DNA of 54,509 nt from contig NZ_JAANAS010000038.1 of NCBI RefSeq assembly GCF_011089875.1, positions 1 through 54,509 of the forward strand. The letters run 5' to 3'. The notes below the pieces were generated by a model. It was not told the DNA's origin. It made no database searches and worked only from the letters and a program-made list of their open reading frames with translations. The translations under genes were made by a program, and so were the position numbers. Source of the DNA: Psychroflexus maritimus (lineage in GTDB: Bacteria > Bacteroidota > Bacteroidia > Flavobacteriales > Flavobacteriaceae). Positions 1,825 to 35,590 of this stretch are shown piece after piece. Each line of letters begins with the position of its first letter. Positions within the stretch are counted from its first letter, which is position 1.

Positions 1825-2175
1825 TTATTTTTTAGCTGCTTTTAAATCTTTCATTAGTTCATCGTTTTTCTTTTTTAAAGCTGCTAATTCTTCTTCCATA
1901 GAAGCCAATAAGTTATTTGATTTACCTTGAGCTTGATGAATAGTTGAATCTAATTTTTCTTCAAATTTAGATTTAGCTTCTTCAGCAAATTCTGAAAGTT
2001 TATCTGAAGCTTCATCATACTTTTTTTCTAATGATTTTTTTGCATTCTTTGCTTCTTTCTTAATTTGCTTTCTTGTTTTATCTCCACTTTGAGGTGCATA
2101 TAAAATTCCTAATCCGGCTCCAACAACAGCACCTGTTAATAAAGCAATTAATGTATTTCCAGTATTATCTGACAT
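1825..2175 (-). CDS. YtxH domain-containing protein
   Basis: A 116-residue protein with an N-terminal membrane segment containing LLTGAVVGAGLGILYAPQSG (residues 12-31), the hallmark of YtxH/GvpP-like proteins, followed by a long Lys/Glu-rich coiled coil to the end. YtxH proteins are usually general-stress proteins. First gene of the leftward operon; the -7 box at 2204-2211 gives a leader of about 25 nt. The promoter lies at the edge of the candidate origin region. Confidence 0.85.
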   Translation of the reverse strand: MSDNTGNTLIALLTGAVVGAGLGILYAPQSGDKTRKQIKKEAKNAKKSLEKKYDEASDKLSEFAEEAKSKFEEKLDSTIHQAQGKSNNLLASMEEELAALKKKNDELMKDLKAAKK

Positions 2176-2203
2176 AATTATATAGTTTTAATAGTGATTT
2201 TCT

Positions 2204-2211
2204 CAAATATA
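2204..2211 (-). promoter_or_regulatory. -7 promoter box of the YtxH operon
   Basis: On the minus strand this reads TATATTTG, an exact TAnnTTTG match, 28 nt before the YtxH start codon. Confidence 0.7.
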
Positions 2212-2355
2212 GAAAATAACATAGCAATTTAGGTTAATTTGAAGTTAATGTACATCGATATACAAAGTATCTTATGCTAAAATGATTCTTATCATATTTC
2301 AACTGAATTAAAAAGGTGTTTACATAATAACTAATTGGTTTTATTGAATTTAGCT

Positions 2356-2823
2356 TTATCAACAGCTTCAATAATAAGATTTGATAAACTTTTCAAAACA
2401 AAGCAATTAGAAATCAACAGTAATGTGAATAAATTGAAGCTAAAAAACAAATAAAAAATTTGGTTGAACCAATAAAATTTCCTGATAAAAATTTGAATGA
2501 ATATTCGGTTTTAATAAGTGAAAAATTAAATAAAAGTTATCCCCTACTTTTTTAAGTTTATCAACAAGTTAAGTCAATGTAAATTTTAAGTAAATTGTAC
2601 TATTAACCGATTTTAAAAACTTGTTGATAAGTCTAAAATAAAATTCATTTACAATAACTTAACATTAAAAAGAAATGTGAATAACAAGTGGAAAAAAAAG
2701 AGATTCTAACAAAAAAAAGAGATTCTACAAAAAGTTTTCACGATATTCACAGTACATATATATAACAAAGTTTTATTTTAATTTTTAAAAAAAGAAATAT
2801 GTATTACTTATATATGTTGATAA
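2356..2823. other. oriC: Candidate chromosomal replication origin (DnaA-box cluster)
   Basis: The 730-bp gene-free, very AT-rich gap between the divergent YtxH and glyS genes holds a cluster of 9-mers close to the DnaA box TTATnCACA. Exact matches TTATTCACA occur on the minus strand at 2424-2432 and 2676-2684. TTATCAACA, one mismatch, occurs at 2356-2364 (+), 2558-2566 (+), 2622-2630 (-) and 2815-2823 (-). ATATTCACA lies at 2743-2751 (+). Two of the boxes extend to a 13-bp inverted pair TTATCAACAAGTT (2558-2570 and 2618-2630). A 17-bp direct repeat sits at 2692-2727. No gene, RNA or known repeat explains these. Bacteroidota origins need not lie beside dnaA. The alternative is a cluster of regulator sites in promoter DNA. 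Confidence 0.6.
2692..2727. repeat. 17-bp direct repeat inside the candidate origin
   Basis: AAAAAAAAGAGATTCTA occurs at 2692-2708 and again at 2711-2727, a 19-nt period, between DnaA-box-like sites. It could form part of an unwinding element, which is inference. Confidence 0.7.
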
Positions 2824-2900
2824 CTACTTTTAAAAAGTAAAACTAAAGTAAGCTAACTTTCAATTTGTCTTGATAAGATACACTAAGCCAAAATAATTTC

Positions 2901-2908
2901 TATTTTTG
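2901..2908 (+). promoter_or_regulatory. -7 promoter box of glyS, almost leaderless
   Basis: TATTTTTG lies only 6 nt before the ATG at 2915. With a start point 4-5 nt after the box the mRNA would have almost no 5' leader. It also rules out the upstream in-frame ATG at 2906, which overlaps the box. Confidence 0.75.
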
Positions 2909-2914
2909 CAAGCT

Positions 2915-4459
2915 ATGGCAAAACAAGAAGATAAATTTAAGCAAGTTATAGCCCATGCCAAAGAGTATGGCTATATATTTTCATCTAGTGAAATTTATGA
3001 TGGATTAAGTGCGGTATATGATTACGGTCAAAATGGTGCTGAACTTAAAAAGAATATTAAAGAATATTGGTGGCGCAGTATGGTGCAATTGCATGAAGAA
3101 ATTGTAGGCTTAGATGCTGCAATTTTAATGCATCCAAAAACTTGGACAGCTTCGGGCCACACTGAGGCATTTAATGATCCATTAATTGATAATAAAGATT
3201 CAAAAAAAAGATACCGGGCTGATGTTTTAATTGAAGACTATTGTGAAAAATTAGAGCAAAAAGCACAAAAGGAAATCAAAAAAGCAAAAAAACGTTTTGG
3301 AGATGATTTTGATGAAGCTCAGTTTGTAAGTACGCATCCAAGAGTTGTGAAATACAAACAACAACAAAAGGAAATTCTTCAACGTATGGCTAAATCATTA
3401 GATAATGGTAATTTATATGATGTAAAAGCCTTAATTGAAGAATTAGAAATTGCTTGTCCAGCTTCAGGTTCTAAAAATTGGACTGATGTTAAGCAATTTA
3501 ATTTGATGTTTGCTACCAAACTTGGGGCATCAGCAGAAACAGCCACCGATTTATACCTTCGTCCAGAAACGGCACAAGGTATTTTTGTCAACTTTGCTAA
3601 TGTGCAAAAAACCGGCAGAATGAAAATTCCGTTTGGTATTGCTCAAATTGGTAAAGCTTTTAGAAACGAAATTGTAGCCCGTCAGTTTATTTTCCGTCAG
3701 CGTGAATTTGAACAGATGGAAATGCAATATTTTGTTCGTCCAGGAGATGAATTAAAATGGTTTGAATACTGGAAAGATTTACGTGCAAAATGGCATCAAT
3801 CTTTAGGAATTAACCAGGAATTGTATCGTTTTCATGACCATGAAAAATTAGCACATTATGCCAATGCTGCTACCGATATTGAATTTGATTTTCCTTTTGG
3901 ATTTAAAGAATTAGAAGGAATTCACTCTAGAACCGATTTTGATTTAAGTGCTCATGAAAAACTATCAGGTAAAAAATTACAATTTTTTGATCCTGAATTA
4001 AACAAATCTTATGTGCCTTATGTAATTGAAACTTCAATTGGATTAGATAGAATGTTCTTAGCCGTTTTTTCAAGCGCTTTAAAAGACGAAACACTAGAAG
4101 ATGGAAGCAGACGTACTGTTTTGCAAATTCCTCCTGTTTTAGCTCCTGTAAAGGCAGCTGTGTTTCCACTCTTAAAAAAAGATGGACTCCCAGAAATAGC
4201 GCATGAAATTATAGATGAATTGAAATGGGATTTCAATGTAATTTATGATGAAAAAGATGCTGTTGGAAAGCGTTACCGAAGACAAGATGCTGCTGGAACT
4301 CCTTTTTGTATTACCGTAGATCACGATACTATTGAAGATCGAACTGTAACTATAAGACACCGCGACACGATGGAACAAAAACGTGTAAAAATTGAGGATT
4401 TACAAGGTATTTTAGACCAGGAAGTTAATATGAAATATTGGTTAAAGAAAATTAAGTAA
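2915..4459 (+). CDS. glyS: Glycine--tRNA ligase, single-chain (alpha2) type
   Basis: Charges tRNA-Gly with glycine using ATP. The 514-residue product is the eukaryote-like class II homodimeric GlyRS found in Bacteroidota, not the alpha2-beta2 bacterial form. Motif 2 is recognisable as KAFRNEIVARQFIFRQREFEQMEMQYF, and motif 3 as the GLDRMFLA stretch; the anticodon-binding domain starts around LAPVKAAVFPL. Length is normal for the family. The ATG at 2915 is chosen because the promoter box ends at 2908. Single gene, followed by a strong terminator at 4483-4518. Confidence 0.97.
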   Translation: MAKQEDKFKQVIAHAKEYGYIFSSSEIYDGLSAVYDYGQNGAELKKNIKEYWWRSMVQLHEEIVGLDAAILMHPKTWTASGHTEAFNDPLIDNKDSKKRYRADVLIEDYCEKLEQKAQKEIKKAKKRFGDDFDEAQFVSTHPRVVKYKQQQKEILQRMAKSLDNGNLYDVKALIEELEIACPASGSKNWTDVKQFNLMFATKLGASAETATDLYLRPETAQGIFVNFANVQKTGRMKIPFGIAQIGKAFRNEIVARQFIFRQREFEQMEMQYFVRPGDELKWFEYWKDLRAKWHQSLGINQELYRFHDHEKLAHYANAATDIEFDFPFGFKELEGIHSRTDFDLSAHEKLSGKKLQFFDPELNKSYVPYVIETSIGLDRMFLAVFSSALKDETLEDGSRRTVLQIPPVLAPVKAAVFPLLKKDGLPEIAHEIIDELKWDFNVIYDEKDAVGKRYRRQDAAGTPFCITVDHDTIEDRTVTIRHRDTMEQKRVKIEDLQGILDQEVNMKYWLKKIK

Positions 4460-30776: not shown

Positions 30777-33005
30777 CTAAACTACTTCGCCTTTTTCTAG
30801 AAACTTGTTTTCTTTGCTTCCAACCAATTCAAAATCAATGTTACGCTTAACTAAATCGGCTTTTTTTACTTTCACAAAAACCTCATCACCTAGTTGAAAA
30901 GTCATTTTTTTTCGCTTGCCAACAATGGCATAATTCTCTTTATCAAAGTAATAATGATCTCCTTCAATATCTCTTAAACGCACCATACCTTCGCATCGGT
31001 TTTCTATGATTTCAACAAACATTCCAAAGTCGGTTACACCAGAAATGACTCCAGTAAATTCTTGGTCTTCATACTGCTGCATGAATTTTACTTGCATGTA
31101 CTTAATTGAATCGCGTTCAGCATTAGTGGCCAAACCTTCCATTTGAGAAGAATGCTTACACTTTTCTTCGTATTCTTCTTGTTTTACGCTGTCTTTTTCA
31201 TCTAAGTAACGCTGTAACAAGCGATGGACCATAACATCAGGATACCTTCTAATAGGTGAAGTAAAATGCGAGTAAAAATCGAATGCCAATCCATAATGAC
31301 CAATATTCTGAGTGGAATAATAAGCTTTAGACATAGAACGTATAGCTAAGGTATCAATTAAATTTTGTTCGCCTTTGCCTTGCACATCTTCCAAGAGTTG
31401 ATTTAACGAACTAATGGTTGATTTTCTGCTTTTTAGGTTCAGTTGGTATCCAAATTTGTTAACTACGGTATTTAAAGCAGTTAGTTTTTCTGGGTCTGGT
31501 TCGTCATGACAACGATAAACAAAGGTCTTTTTAGGCTTTTGCTTACCAATAAATTCAGAAACTTTTTTATTGGCCAATAACATAAATTCTTCAATTAACT
31601 TATTGGCATCTTTAGAAGTTTTGAAAAAGACTCCCTCCGGATTATTTTCCTCGTTTAAATCAAATTTCACTTCAATTTTATCAAACGAAATAGAGCCATT
31701 TTTCATTCGCTTTAGGCGCATCATTTTGGCCAACTTATCCAATTTTAAAACAGCATCACTTATGCGCTTATCAACTTGGTAAGTTTTTCCGCTAAGCGAA
31801 ACACTAGCATCAATTTCATTACTTTCTGTATCAATAATAAACTGAGCTTCTTCGTAGGCAAAACGCGCATCTGAATAAGTAACTGTTCTTCCAAACCATT
31901 CGTTGACCACTTTTGCCTGAGGAGTAACTTCAAAGACGGATGAAAAAGTGTATTTCTCTTCATTTGGTCTTAAAGAACAAGCCTTATTAGAAAGCACTTC
32001 AGGAAGCATAGGGACAACGCGATCTACTAAGTAAATAGAAGTAGCCCTTTGGTAAGCTTCATCATCTAAAACGCTTCCGGGTTGTACGTAAAAGGAAACA
32101 TCGGCAATATGAATACCAATTTCATAATTTCCGTTATCAAGCATCTTAAAACTCAAAGCATCGTCAAAATCTTTTGCATCGGCGGGGTCTATGGTAAAGG
32201 TGAGTACATCCCGCATATCTCTTCGCTTAGCAATTTCTGAAGCTTGAATAGAAGTATCTAATTGGTTAGCGAAATCTTCTACTTCTTTAGGGAATTTTTC
32301 TGGCAAGCCATATTGTGCTAAAATAGCATGCATTTCGGTTTGATGTTCCCCCGGGATTCCTAAAACTTCTATGATTTTCCCTCGGGGAGAATCGTCATTT
32401 TTGCCCCAAGAAGTCATTTCCACCAAGACCATTTCACCATTTTTAGCAGCATTCATGTTTTCTGGAGCAACAAAAATATCGGTGTACATTTTGGGATTTT
32501 GCATGACCACAAAGCCAAAGTTTTTTTGCTGATCTAAAACACCAACAAAACGCGTGGTATGACGTTCAAGCACCTCAACAACTTCGCCTTCAGCGCTTGA
32601 TCGTTGCCTGTTTTTGAACACATAAACCTGAACTTTATCTCTATTTAAAGCACTGTTAAGGTTAGCATTAGCAATGTGAATATCGTTTTCTAGTCCTTCA
32701 ACAATAACATAAGCATCACCTTTGGAAGTCATATCAATACTTCCTTCATAAAAATCTGAACTTCCATTAAATTGAAACTTACCTCTGGAAGTTTCTTTGA
32801 GCTTACCCTTAGCGGTTTGTTGAGCTAAGGTTCGAATAATTCGATTTCTACTTTTAGCATCATCTACATTTAGGCGAGAAGCAATTTCTTTATAATTGAA
32901 GGATTCGTTTTCGTTAGATTTAAATATTCTTAGGATTTTATGCGTAAAGTTTGCGCTTGAAGTTCCGTTATTTCTTTTTCTATTGTTATTTCTTTTTTTA
33001 CTCAT
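30777..33005 (-). CDS. rnr: Ribonuclease R
   Basis: A 742-residue 3'-to-5' exoribonuclease of the RNase II/R family that degrades structured RNA. Domains in order: N-terminal helix-turn-helix-like domain (about 20-75), cold-shock domains (about 75-230), RNB catalytic domain with TIDPADAKDFDDALSF near 262 carrying the metal-binding aspartates, and C-terminal S1 domain from about 645 (FTGVISGVTDFGMFVEI). The Lys/Arg/Asn-rich first 15 residues are family-typical. Own promoter box at 33023-33030 (minus strand). Confidence 0.97.
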   Translation of the reverse strand: MSKKRNNNRKRNNGTSSANFTHKILRIFKSNENESFNYKEIASRLNVDDAKSRNRIIRTLAQQTAKGKLKETSRGKFQFNGSSDFYEGSIDMTSKGDAYVIVEGLENDIHIANANLNSALNRDKVQVYVFKNRQRSSAEGEVVEVLERHTTRFVGVLDQQKNFGFVVMQNPKMYTDIFVAPENMNAAKNGEMVLVEMTSWGKNDDSPRGKIIEVLGIPGEHQTEMHAILAQYGLPEKFPKEVEDFANQLDTSIQASEIAKRRDMRDVLTFTIDPADAKDFDDALSFKMLDNGNYEIGIHIADVSFYVQPGSVLDDEAYQRATSIYLVDRVVPMLPEVLSNKACSLRPNEEKYTFSSVFEVTPQAKVVNEWFGRTVTYSDARFAYEEAQFIIDTESNEIDASVSLSGKTYQVDKRISDAVLKLDKLAKMMRLKRMKNGSISFDKIEVKFDLNEENNPEGVFFKTSKDANKLIEEFMLLANKKVSEFIGKQKPKKTFVYRCHDEPDPEKLTALNTVVNKFGYQLNLKSRKSTISSLNQLLEDVQGKGEQNLIDTLAIRSMSKAYYSTQNIGHYGLAFDFYSHFTSPIRRYPDVMVHRLLQRYLDEKDSVKQEEYEEKCKHSSQMEGLATNAERDSIKYMQVKFMQQYEDQEFTGVISGVTDFGMFVEIIENRCEGMVRLRDIEGDHYYFDKENYAIVGKRKKMTFQLGDEVFVKVKKADLVKRNIDFELVGSKENKFLEKGEVV

Positions 33006-33433
33006 ATATTTTTTAAACTCTTCAAATGTAAGTATTTTTATTGGAGCTACACAGGCTTTTAAGACAAGTAAGTATTATTGAATGGTTAATACTAATTTAA
33101 GCTGATTGAATTTAATTTTCCAATTATGTTCGAAACCACTCAGTGACCTCACTTCGATACAATTTCAACTGCACTCTCGTTCGTTGAAATCACTCAGTGA
33201 CCACACACAATTTACAACATTCAATAATTCTTAAAAAAACACTTAATTTGGAAACAATACCACTAAATTCTTAGTTTGTGCTTTAAAAAATGATGAATTT
33301 GTAATTAATGTCTTTAATCAATATAAAATCAGCTATTTAATCAAGTATTACCTGAGTGTTAAATCTTAAAAAATTAACTTTTTTGGCTTTCAGTTTGTTA
33401 ATAATTTTATAATTTTGTTTTAAATTTAAAAGC
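33006..33433. other. Intergenic: rnr promoter and a dispersed repeat
   Basis: Contains the rnr -7 box (minus strand CAAATGTA at 33023-33030, read as TACATTTG) and the repeat at 33131-33203, whose reverse complement carries GGTCACTGAGTGATTTCAAC and matches 52487-52570. A second exact -7 box, TAATTTTG at 33410-33417 on the plus strand, precedes the small ORF at 33434. No other gene seen. Confidence 0.65.
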
Positions 33434-33556
33434 GTGTTTAAGCCAAAAACCATATTTATTTTCTTTTTAAGCATCCTAGCTATTGGGGTGTTATTGATTT
33501 ACCTTTATCTTACTAGTTTTTTAAATCATAAATTGAATTTCGACTTTTCCTTTTAA
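33434..33556 (+). CDS. Possible 40-residue single-pass membrane peptide
   Basis: A GTG-initiated frame of 40 codons, MFKPKTIFIFFLSILAIGVL followed by a hydrophobic and then polar tail ending NFDFSF. One membrane segment (about 6-30) with a positively charged N-terminus. An exact -7 box TAATTTTG (33410-33417) lies 16 nt upstream and has no other gene to serve. The pattern is that of a small membrane protein. The short length, GTG start and lack of a family make it uncertain. It could also be a leader region for the DUF2007 gene. Confidence 0.35.
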   Translation: MFKPKTIFIFFLSILAIGVLLIYLYLTSFLNHKLNFDFSF

Positions 33557-33637
33557 CTTATAAAAGCACTTCTGTTTAAGACTAGCCTAGGTTTAATTTT
33601 TTACCAAAAATTTAAATAATTCATACGAAAACAAGTT

Positions 33638-33645
33638 TATTTTTG
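33638..33645 (+). promoter_or_regulatory. -7 promoter box of the DUF2007 gene
   Basis: TATTTTTG, exact consensus, 15 nt before the ATG at 33661. Confidence 0.7.
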
Positions 33646-33660
33646 AACTAAAATAAAAGC

Positions 33661-33903
33661 ATGACCGATTTTATTAAAATAGCTATTTTTACTTATCCGC
33701 ATGAATATACGGTGCTAAAGCTAGTTTTAGAAAAAAACAACATCCGATTTTTCTTCCAAAATGAAACCGTTATTGGTATGATTCCTTTTTATTCAAACGC
33801 TTTAGGCGGGATTTTTCTGAAAGTTCACCCCAACGACCTTGAGCAAGCGAAAGCTATTTTAAGAGATTTTAGTACAGAAGATGAATATCTTAAAATTGTT
33901 TAA
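33661..33903 (+). CDS. DUF2007 domain protein
   Basis: An 80-residue protein matching the DUF2007 ('putative signal transducing protein') family: IKIAIFTYPHEYTVLKLVLEKNNIRFFFQNE, then a variable loop, then GGIFLKVHPNDLEQAKAIL. The fold is a small ferredoxin-like domain; related domains resemble PII-like proteins. Function unknown. Single gene under its own promoter, convergent with the S41 protease. Confidence 0.85.
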   Translation: MTDFIKIAIFTYPHEYTVLKLVLEKNNIRFFFQNETVIGMIPFYSNALGGIFLKVHPNDLEQAKAILRDFSTEDEYLKIV

Positions 33904-33970
33904 GCTGTAATATCAATTTTACCATCAAATGGTGCTCTATTTACTATTTTTAATATTCAATTAGGTATAA

Positions 33971-35590
33971 TTAGGCCTTTAAAATCTCTTTGTATCGTTT
34001 TTTGTTATTTAGTATTTCTTGCGCTTCTTTTACTTCTTCAGCATTTTTAGTGTCGAATTCAAAAACTCCTTCGTCATAAAAATAGCGTCTAATCACTTCT
34101 TCTTCAAGCAAACGCTCAATCGCCTTTTTTCGTTGGTTAAATGATTCTTCTTTGTAAGCGTCTATTGACTTTTCTATAGTTAGTACATCTTTTTTAAATA
34201 GCTGGTTTAGTTTTTCATTTTCAGCTACTTCTTTTAATGTTTGAAGTTGTTTTTCTGTAGCTGTTTCATAACTAAAATTAGACTGTTCAACAAATTTGAT
34301 AAAGGCCTTGTAGTCTTGATTAGTTAAATTAAAATCACTTAAGTTCTCAAACGAATGAGTGTAGTAAAATTGAGTTGCAAACTCAAAAATCATATTTTTT
34401 TCTAATAAGGCCTTTGTTAAACCTTCAGTTTGTGCACTTTCTACTTCAATATCAGGTCTAATTCCACCGCCATCAAAAACACTTCTACCGTTTCTTGTTT
34501 TAAATTCTTGGTATTGTTCTTTATTTTTTCTTATGGCTTTTCCTTCTTGGTAATCTAAAGCTTGAATACACCTTCCACTAGGAGTGTAATACCTTGAAAT
34601 AGTAATTTTAGCTGAAGTTCCATAATTCAAATTCTTAGGTCGTTGCACCAAACCTTTTCCAAAACTTCGCGCGCCAATTACTATACCACGGTCTAAATCT
34701 TGAATGCTTCCAGAAACAATTTCACTTGCCGAAGCACTACGTTCATTAATCAAAACCGCCATAGGTAGTTGGTCATCAATGGGTCGATTTTGGGTGACGT
34801 AAGTTTGGTTGTACTTTTCTATTGCCGATTTGGTAAAAGTGATTAAAACATCTTTAGGAACAAACAAGTTAGTTACATTCACCGCCTCGCCAAGCAATCC
34901 GCCAGGGTTACCTCTAAGGTCTAAAATAACTTGTTCAGCTCCTTGTTCTTTCAATTTTTTCAAGGCTTCTCCAACTTCTTTAGAGGCCGTTTTAGTAAAT
35001 TTGGCTAAAGCAATGTAAGCGGTTTTGTCTTCTAAAAGGGAGTAAAAAGGAACGGCTTTTTGTTCTTCTGAAGCGCGTTCTACTTCCAATTCTTTTTCTT
35101 TTCCTTGACGAATAAACTGAAGTTCAACTTTTGTTCCCGCTCCACCTTTTAGCAACTCTGAAGCATCTTGCTGAAAATTAGCTAGTTCTATTCCGTCTAT
35201 ATGGGTAATTACATCACCAATTTTTAAGCCTGCTTTATCGGCTGGCCCATTTTGATTCACTTTTGCAATAACCACCTGTTCATTAATTAATTTAAAATTA
35301 GCCCCTACGCTAGAAACTGAACCTGATTGCTGAATACGTGCACGTTGTACATCTTGCTCAGAATAAAATTGTGTGTATGGGTCTAAATCTTTCAACATAG
35401 CAACAATAGCCGTGTTCATTAATTCTGCCGAATTAATTTCATCTACATAATTCATATTAACCTCTTTGTAGAGGTTGGTAAAAATTTCTATTTGTTTGGC
35501 AATTTCAAAGAAGTCTGAACGGTAATTAAAGCCTAAACTGCCTAATGCAATTACTCCTCCAAGTACTAGTGCTAAAAGTTTCTTTTTCAT
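33971..35590 (-). CDS. S41 family C-terminal processing peptidase
   Basis: A 539-residue exported serine protease of the CtpA/Prc family. N-terminal signal or anchor segment (KKLLALVLGGVIALGSLGFNY), PDZ domain at about 80-165 (GLKIGDVITHIDGIEL), catalytic core with the conserved ILDLRGNPGG near 215, the nucleophile block INERSASASEIVSG near 280, and the general-base lysine in ARSFGKGLVQRP near 305. A charged C-terminal helical extension from about 400. Acts in the periplasm on protein C-termini. A -7 box (TACTTTTG at 35781-35788, minus strand) lies about 190 nt upstream of this start, so the leader is long or encodes something. Confidence 0.93.
   Translation of the reverse strand: MKKKLLALVLGGVIALGSLGFNYRSDFFEIAKQIEIFTNLYKEVNMNYVDEINSAELMNTAIVAMLKDLDPYTQFYSEQDVQRARIQQSGSVSSVGANFKLINEQVVIAKVNQNGPADKAGLKIGDVITHIDGIELANFQQDASELLKGGAGTKVELQFIRQGKEKELEVERASEEQKAVPFYSLLEDKTAYIALAKFTKTASKEVGEALKKLKEQGAEQVILDLRGNPGGLLGEAVNVTNLFVPKDVLITFTKSAIEKYNQTYVTQNRPIDDQLPMAVLINERSASASEIVSGSIQDLDRGIVIGARSFGKGLVQRPKNLNYGTSAKITISRYYTPSGRCIQALDYQEGKAIRKNKEQYQEFKTRNGRSVFDGGGIRPDIEVESAQTEGLTKALLEKNMIFEFATQFYYTHSFENLSDFNLTNQDYKAFIKFVEQSNFSYETATEKQLQTLKEVAENEKLNQLFKKDVLTIEKSIDAYKEESFNQRKKAIERLLEEEVIRRYFYDEGVFEFDTKNAEEVKEAQEILNNKKRYKEILKA

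Follow-up and report, generated by a model that had tools for sequence, protein, structure and literature searches.

Where does replication begin on the chromosome of this Psychroflexus-group flavobacterium? Origins in Bacteroidota are difficult to locate, as dnaA does not point to them and sequence records often open at dnaA. An earlier note, made from the letters of one contig, had proposed that a group of DnaA boxes at positions 2356 to 2823, between a YtxH-family gene and glyS, is the chromosomal oriC. That contig, analysed here over its whole length of 54.5 kb, is referred to as the window. The assembly comprises 126 contigs, of which the window is one (C37), and the case for an origin is therefore comparative, drawing on other genomes of the genus and family (given as G numbers, with G000 for the window's own genome).

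DnaA boxes of the window and the genus

All seven DnaA boxes that the earlier note had claimed are present: four copies of TTATCAACA, two of TTATTCACA and one of ATATTCACA, distributed over both strands. These boxes and the other features considered below are as follows, with 'aligned' referring to a set of five genomes and 'frame' to a pattern of box spacing and strand common to 17 genomes, both described later in this section.

1825..2175, minus strand: YtxH-family gene, left neighbour (Pfam PF12732); adjoins the boxes in five genomes of the genus
2176..2911, no strand: gene-free interval with the proposed oriC; holds the lowest-GC 650 bp and six strict boxes
2356..2364, plus strand: DnaA box TTATCAACA, private to this genome; the four aligned relatives differ by 1-4 mismatches
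2424..2432, minus strand: core DnaA box TTATTCACA; frame position about +195, filled in 13/17; identical in 5/5 aligned genomes
2478..2487, plus strand: conserved motif TTTCCTGATA, not a DnaA box; identical in 5/5 aligned genomes
2558..2566, plus strand: core DnaA box TTATCAACA, forming the central inverted pair with 2622; frame position about +62, filled in 16/17; at most one mismatch in 5/5 aligned genomes
2622..2630, minus strand: core DnaA box TTATCAACA, partner of 2558 in the central inverted pair; frame position 0, filled in 17/17; TTATCAACA, TTATCCACA or TTATTCACA in 5/5 aligned genomes
2676..2684, minus strand: DnaA box TTATTCACA; frame position -54, by position in 7/17; in the alignment only in the window and G020
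2743..2751, plus strand: weak core DnaA box ATATTCACA; frame position -121; one mismatch to the consensus in 4/5 aligned genomes and two in 1/5
2756..2815, no strand: candidate DNA unwinding element; lowest stability of any 60 bp in the window by nearest-neighbour energy
2815..2823, minus strand: core DnaA box TTATCAACA, edge of the candidate unwinding element; frame position -193, filled in 14/17; TTATCAACA, TTATTCACA or TTATCCACA in 5/5 aligned genomes
2906..4459, plus strand: glyS, glycyl-tRNA synthetase, right neighbour (Pfam PF00587, PF03129); in this place only in G000, G014 and G020
30777..33005, minus strand: rnr, RNase R (Pfam PF00773); matches the gene on the origin side in G025; among the origin's neighbours in most relatives, here about 28 kb away
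33661..33900, plus strand: DUF2007-like gene, 72.5% identical to the G025 gene; direct origin neighbour in most relatives, here about 31 kb away

The interval had been described as the most AT-rich of its part of the contig, and this holds for the window as a whole: its lowest-GC 650 bp begins at 2174, with 20.5% GC against a window mean of 34.2%. We counted strict boxes, defined as TTATNCACA or TTATCAACA, and found six in 2176-2911, where 20,000 dinucleotide shuffles gave a mean of 0.085 and a maximum of three, reached once. For TTATCAACA alone, four copies were observed against a shuffle mean of 0.026 and a maximum of two – the earlier estimate of about 0.02 expected copies was therefore fair. 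Over the whole genome both words are in mild excess, with 89 copies of TTATCAACA against 57 of the same word read backwards and 130 of TTATNCACA against 106. Among the contigs for which both words were listed, which hold 100 of the 130 TTATNCACA places, no stretch of 600 bp elsewhere contains more than two strict boxes, compared to six here. On the remaining contigs, for which TTATCAACA alone was listed, that word forms no triple within 1 kb. What is unusual is thus the clustering of the boxes, not the frequency of the words in the genome.

The right part of the cluster coincides with unstable DNA. Among 60-bp stretches of the 54.5-kb window, 2756-2815 has a nearest-neighbour energy of -57.4, ahead of -59.2 for the runner-up, and this candidate unwinding element is flanked by two conserved boxes, at 2743 and 2815. 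We also looked for a basal unwinding system (BUS), made up of a DnaA box, a spacer and DnaA-trios; the criterion, taken from an excerpt of PMC8287927, was three or more NAN trios no further than 16 bp from a box. Box 2815 has four trios beside it, a number that 47% of shuffled flanks attain, and trios there are not above chance; G012 has two at its equivalent of this box.

To ask which boxes are conserved, we aligned five genomes that all carry a YtxH-holin block beside the box cluster (G000, G010, G012, G014 and G020). The five core boxes (2424, 2558, 2622, 2743 and 2815) are present in all five, with TTATCAACA, TTATCCACA and TTATTCACA exchanged for one another in a given position. The core boxes match the window at an identity of 0.95 and the remaining sequence at 0.59, though the core boxes were picked for conservation from the same data. 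The fairer figure is therefore the comparison with slid frames, none of which (0/120) matched the identity of the boxes, the best reaching 0.91. Box 2356 is private to the window's genome and box 2676 is common to the window and G020 only. The 13-bp inverted pair described in the earlier note (2558-2570 and 2618-2630) is exact, and its extension outside the 9-bp boxes is not preserved in the relatives.

The central inverted pair also served as a pattern for searching the genus. It matches in 19 of 27 genomes, with 26 forward-strand matches versus nine for a reversed control; within the window's own genome it does no better than the control (two versus four). In 17 of the 27 genomes, the window's included, 86 of 99 boxes can be placed on a single frame that fixes spacing and strand, with positions at about -193, -121, -66 or -54, 0, +62, +195 and +249. 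This frame was derived from the same 17 genomes in which it was scored; random placement of the same numbers of boxes, again with the best frame taken, gave a fit of 30.8 (sd 2.3). No such cluster was established in the other ten genomes, namely eight without a pattern match and two dropped before the frame count – G023, with two boxes in a 169-bp gap, and G024, with three boxes over 637 bp and an open reading frame across them. The motif TTTCCTGATA was considered as a genus-wide element and rejected, with no copy at up to one mismatch in 10 of the 12 other genus clusters.

Strand bias and rRNA orientation in relatives

The earlier note had named the switch in GC skew as a check on its proposal. 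Bulk skew along the drafts G010 and G012 is dominated by gene direction, with no clear switch around the cluster. Hence skew was fitted on fourfold sites alone, allowing for gene strand as a covariate, in 20-kb stretches sampled from three single-contig congeners (G025, G018 and G019). The expected coincidence was found in one of them, loosely in a second and not in the third. In G025 (4.32 Mb) the cluster lies at 2.013 Mb and the skew optimum 0.04 Mb away at 1.97 Mb, with F 24.1 (22.0 at 2.00 Mb and 21.3 at 2.03 Mb). Coarse sampling alone had placed this optimum at 2.30-2.45 Mb, with F 19.2 versus 18.2 at the cluster; bootstraps fell within 10% of the genome in 32/60 cases with coarse and 59/60 with fine sampling. 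In G018 (2.56 Mb) the cluster is at 1.133 Mb and the optimum at 1.21 Mb (F 10.4), on a broad and poorly resolved plateau. G019 (3.06 Mb) is a clear miss – the cluster is at 2.394 Mb and the optimum 0.33 Mb away at 2.72 Mb, with F 35.2 versus 4.3 at 2.41 Mb. The G019 cluster is on frame, mnmG is 8 kb from it and both 16S genes agree with it, so the offset possibly reflects a recent inversion or an assembly fault.

We then turned to the orientation of rRNA genes across the family. In 11 of the 17 framed genomes rpiB is adjacent or next but one to the boxes, and we used rpiB as a stand-in for the cluster. The sample comprised the three congeners and all 22 single-contig Flavobacteriaceae with rpiB that a draw of 149 family genomes contained. 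Two genomes gave no 16S match (G097 and G144), leaving 23 to be counted, with the centre placed at rpiB in 20 and at the box cluster in three. Nine small fragments adjoining a counted row were dropped, reducing 64 16S rows to 55, eight of them partial copies. All 55 genes, in 23/23 genomes, point away from the rpiB/cluster centre, a count made with 20 genome lengths rounded and at most 10 candidates scored per genome, in genomes that share ancestry. Random centres agree with 27.5 of 55 genes on average (sd 5.3; maximum 48 in 20,000 draws), and dnaA as the centre agrees with only six. Shifting the centre by +5%, -5%, +10% and -10% of the chromosome leaves 54, 55, 53 and 51 genes in agreement, a 15% shift 47 or 45, and a 50% shift none; the rRNA test thus locates an area of about 10% of the chromosome, not a gap.

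Two further genes were placed relative to this centre. mnmG lies within 60 kb of it in 21 of the 22 genomes with a match, the exception being G049 (323 kb). In 22 of the 23 single-contig genomes dnaA and the inferred origin are separated by 0.20-0.48 of the chromosome, and in G019 by 0.08. In the window's genome dnaA is on a different contig from the cluster (C49:82375), and an origin of the dnaA-dnaN type, with dnaA beside the cluster, was not found. Several records open at dnaA despite its distance from the inferred origin (e.g., G018, G040, G094 and G169).

In the related genomes, then, rRNA orientation diverges from the area of the rpiB/cluster centre, and strand bias does so from the cluster in G025 and, loosely, in G018. 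This bears on whether the boxes might instead form a datA- or DARS-like site that titrates or reactivates DnaA. Such sites are also intergenic clusters of DnaA boxes, and the G019 cluster lies off the skew switch as a site of this kind might. However, in G025 the same box frame coincides with the switch and in G018 it is close by, and the rpiB/cluster centre fits 55/55 16S genes, a place where a titration site need not sit. Nor would such a site require the least stable DNA of the window. We consider a titration or reactivation site in place of an origin very improbable.

Turnover of the flanking genes

The placement of the cluster between YtxH and glyS, as put forward in the earlier note, is true of the window, where the two genes are divergent, but these are not the usual neighbours; rpiB is the commonest in the genus. 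In seven of the 11 genomes with rpiB beside the boxes (G002, G005, G007, G008, G009, G013 and G025), the opposite side is occupied by RNase R and DUF2007-like genes. G012 and G010 retain DUF2007-like and rnr, with YtxH replacing rpiB, and in G012 rpiB is 98 kb from the cluster and turned round. YtxH and glyS flank the boxes in the window and in two relatives, G014 and G020; the boxes are present in both, as the earlier note had expected of relatives that keep this gene pair. The G016 cluster is on a contig of 4 kb that ends there.

Neither flanking gene of the window serves as an origin marker. The closest relatives of its glyS are Psychroflexus genes (84-87% identity), and glyS was rejected as a conserved neighbour: among 80 glyS loci from other species, the upstream 1 kb never contains more than two strict boxes (a few loci have less than 1 kb upstream). 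The YtxH block was likewise rejected as a guide to the origin, with the cluster at 5/26 YtxH-block loci and at most one box at each of the 21 others. The block lies 19-35 kb from the cluster in eight other genomes, and 590 kb and 913 kb away in G006 and G019.

The usual neighbours on the rnr side are still on the window, at 30.8-33.9 kb, with the rnr and DUF2007-like pair reversed relative to G010. (The window copy of the DUF2007-like gene scores 22.2 bits to Pfam PF09413, under the cut-off of 25.7.) In the window, rnr, the DUF2007-like gene and an S41 peptidase gene (33971-35590) stand side by side within 30777-35590. Most relatives have the box cluster, rpiB, a cation-efflux gene and an acetyltransferase between the DUF2007-like gene and the S41 peptidase. 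The adjacency of the three genes in the window is a rearrangement scar. A gene for a putative endonuclease of the Uma2 family (Pfam PF05685) is found at 333-1007, near the contig end.

As the neighbours differ around the same cluster, it is the boxes that are constant and the genes that are variable. Judged by its box geometry and the stepwise change of neighbours, the cluster is orthologous to the one carried by most genomes of the genus. The change is most plainly explained by rearrangements that end next to the cluster. Inversions with one end at the cluster explain both G012 (YtxH beside the boxes, rpiB reversed 98 kb off) and the reversed rnr and DUF2007-like pair of the window. As a single simple history, such inversions do not by themselves account for the S41 peptidase directly beside the DUF2007-like gene.

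A genome so rearranged could in principle carry its boxes as a relic, with the active origin of the clade elsewhere – for example beside rpiB, which is here on another contig (C36:37629-38051), while rnr and the DUF2007-like gene are shifted by 28-31 kb. For comparison, we examined the gap before rpiB at 30 loci in the family, one of which belongs to the window's own genome (L277) and three to the rRNA set. The gap measures 446-1109 bp at 26 of the 29 other loci and 118 bp at one; two run into a contig end. The window's own genome has a gap of 214 bp before rpiB, and a single box-like word occurs there in 1.2 kb. Furthermore, the clade with changed neighbours retains the five core boxes with exchanges from box to box, whereas a relic would lose them. 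A displaced relic is accordingly highly unlikely. Still less likely is a DnaA-regulated or other multi-site control region of the two genes that diverge from the gap, YtxH and glyS, as the boxes persist where both neighbours differ (on the rnr side and the rpiB side) and no comparable cluster accompanies glyS or the YtxH block at their other loci.

The family rpiB loci also bear on the form of the box. At least three boxes of the counted words occur at only four of the 30 loci, yet TTATTAACA (24 vs 2.2) and TTATCAACA (16 vs 0.63) are enriched in the 29 gaps that remain when the window's own genome is excluded, so the DnaA box of the family may be looser than the words counted. Three more words are enriched in the same gaps: GTTAACAAC (18 vs 0.25), AACAACTGT (14 vs 0.42) and CGATCACGC (8 vs 0.03).

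The proposed origin and its known counterparts

The excess of boxes, the genus-wide frame, the constancy of the cluster amid changing neighbours and the orientation of 55/55 16S genes in relatives support the reading of the earlier note. On these comparative and sequence grounds, 2356-2823, within the gap 2176-2911, is very probably the chromosomal oriC of this Psychroflexus-group flavobacterium.

By extension from bacterial origins generally, the observed sequence features would be used as follows. DnaA-ATP would bind the central inverted pair (2558/2622) and the outer boxes (2424, 2743 and 2815). The bound DnaA would assemble into an oligomer and melt the AT-rich stretch 2756-2815 between boxes 2743 and 2815. 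The replicative helicase would then be loaded at the opened 2756-2815, and two forks would leave in opposite directions.

We tentatively suggest, at somewhat less than even confidence, that in this genus oriC may behave as a rigid ruler. Boxes would be held at fixed distances and strands while their words drift between TTATCCACA and TTATCAACA and rearrangements ending beside the origin exchange both neighbours. In the family, dnaA would be kept far off, its dosage falling as origins multiply. Orisome geometry rather than gene context would then be the object of selection, with the origin as a fixed pivot. A dnaA that is copied late would pose the question of how initiation is controlled. A box-resolved origin with variants across the genus is in any case a testable object, with respect to which boxes are needed, where the DNA opens and whether spacing plays a role. 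A family-wide centre beside rpiB, with dnaA distant, would help to place origins in draft genomes and to use coverage ratios as growth measures.

Escherichia coli and Bacillus subtilis provide examples of DnaA-dependent oriC. The cluster resembles bacterial origins of this type in that a gene-free interval combines several 9-bp boxes, present on both strands, with an adjoining AT-rich stretch of low stability, and in that its counterpart lies at the centre of strand asymmetry in G025 and loosely so in G018. It differs from them in lying away from dnaA, in using mainly TTATCAACA and TTATTCACA rather than TTATCCACA, and in having trios that are not above chance. The box and unwinding elements of bacterial oriC are set out in an excerpt of PMC8287927.

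As an oriC, then, the locus is of a known kind, and a flavobacterial origin near mnmG is already predicted in print. In the open literature searched, DoriC apart, this particular gap, the ruler of boxes and the neighbour rearrangements appear undescribed. Ori-Finder predictions place flavobacterial origins near mnmG in Mariniflexile litorale (PMC11278836) and Algorimicrobium (PMC12843772). Our centre falls in the same chromosomal area, and dnaA is again no origin marker; as far as the excerpts of these two papers extend, they name mnmG only, without the rnr-rpiB gap or the box map given here. The text excerpt of PMC11278836 equates mnmG with oriC and leuB with ter and its figure legend reverses both; the mnmG positions in our family genomes agree with the text, not the legend. 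An excerpt of PMC4759079 reports the use of Ori-Finder and does not give the place of the origin, and one of PMC5219744 contains nothing that bears on the locus. Blattabacterium, according to an excerpt of PMC2768785, has neither boxes nor dnaA, and its origin was placed by skew. In Elizabethkingia meningoseptica, which belongs to another family, the excerpted account (PMC8994065) describes a predicted oriC far from dnaA, a 649-bp region with three copies of TTATCCACA at up to one mismatch – like the locus described here, a box cluster distant from dnaA.
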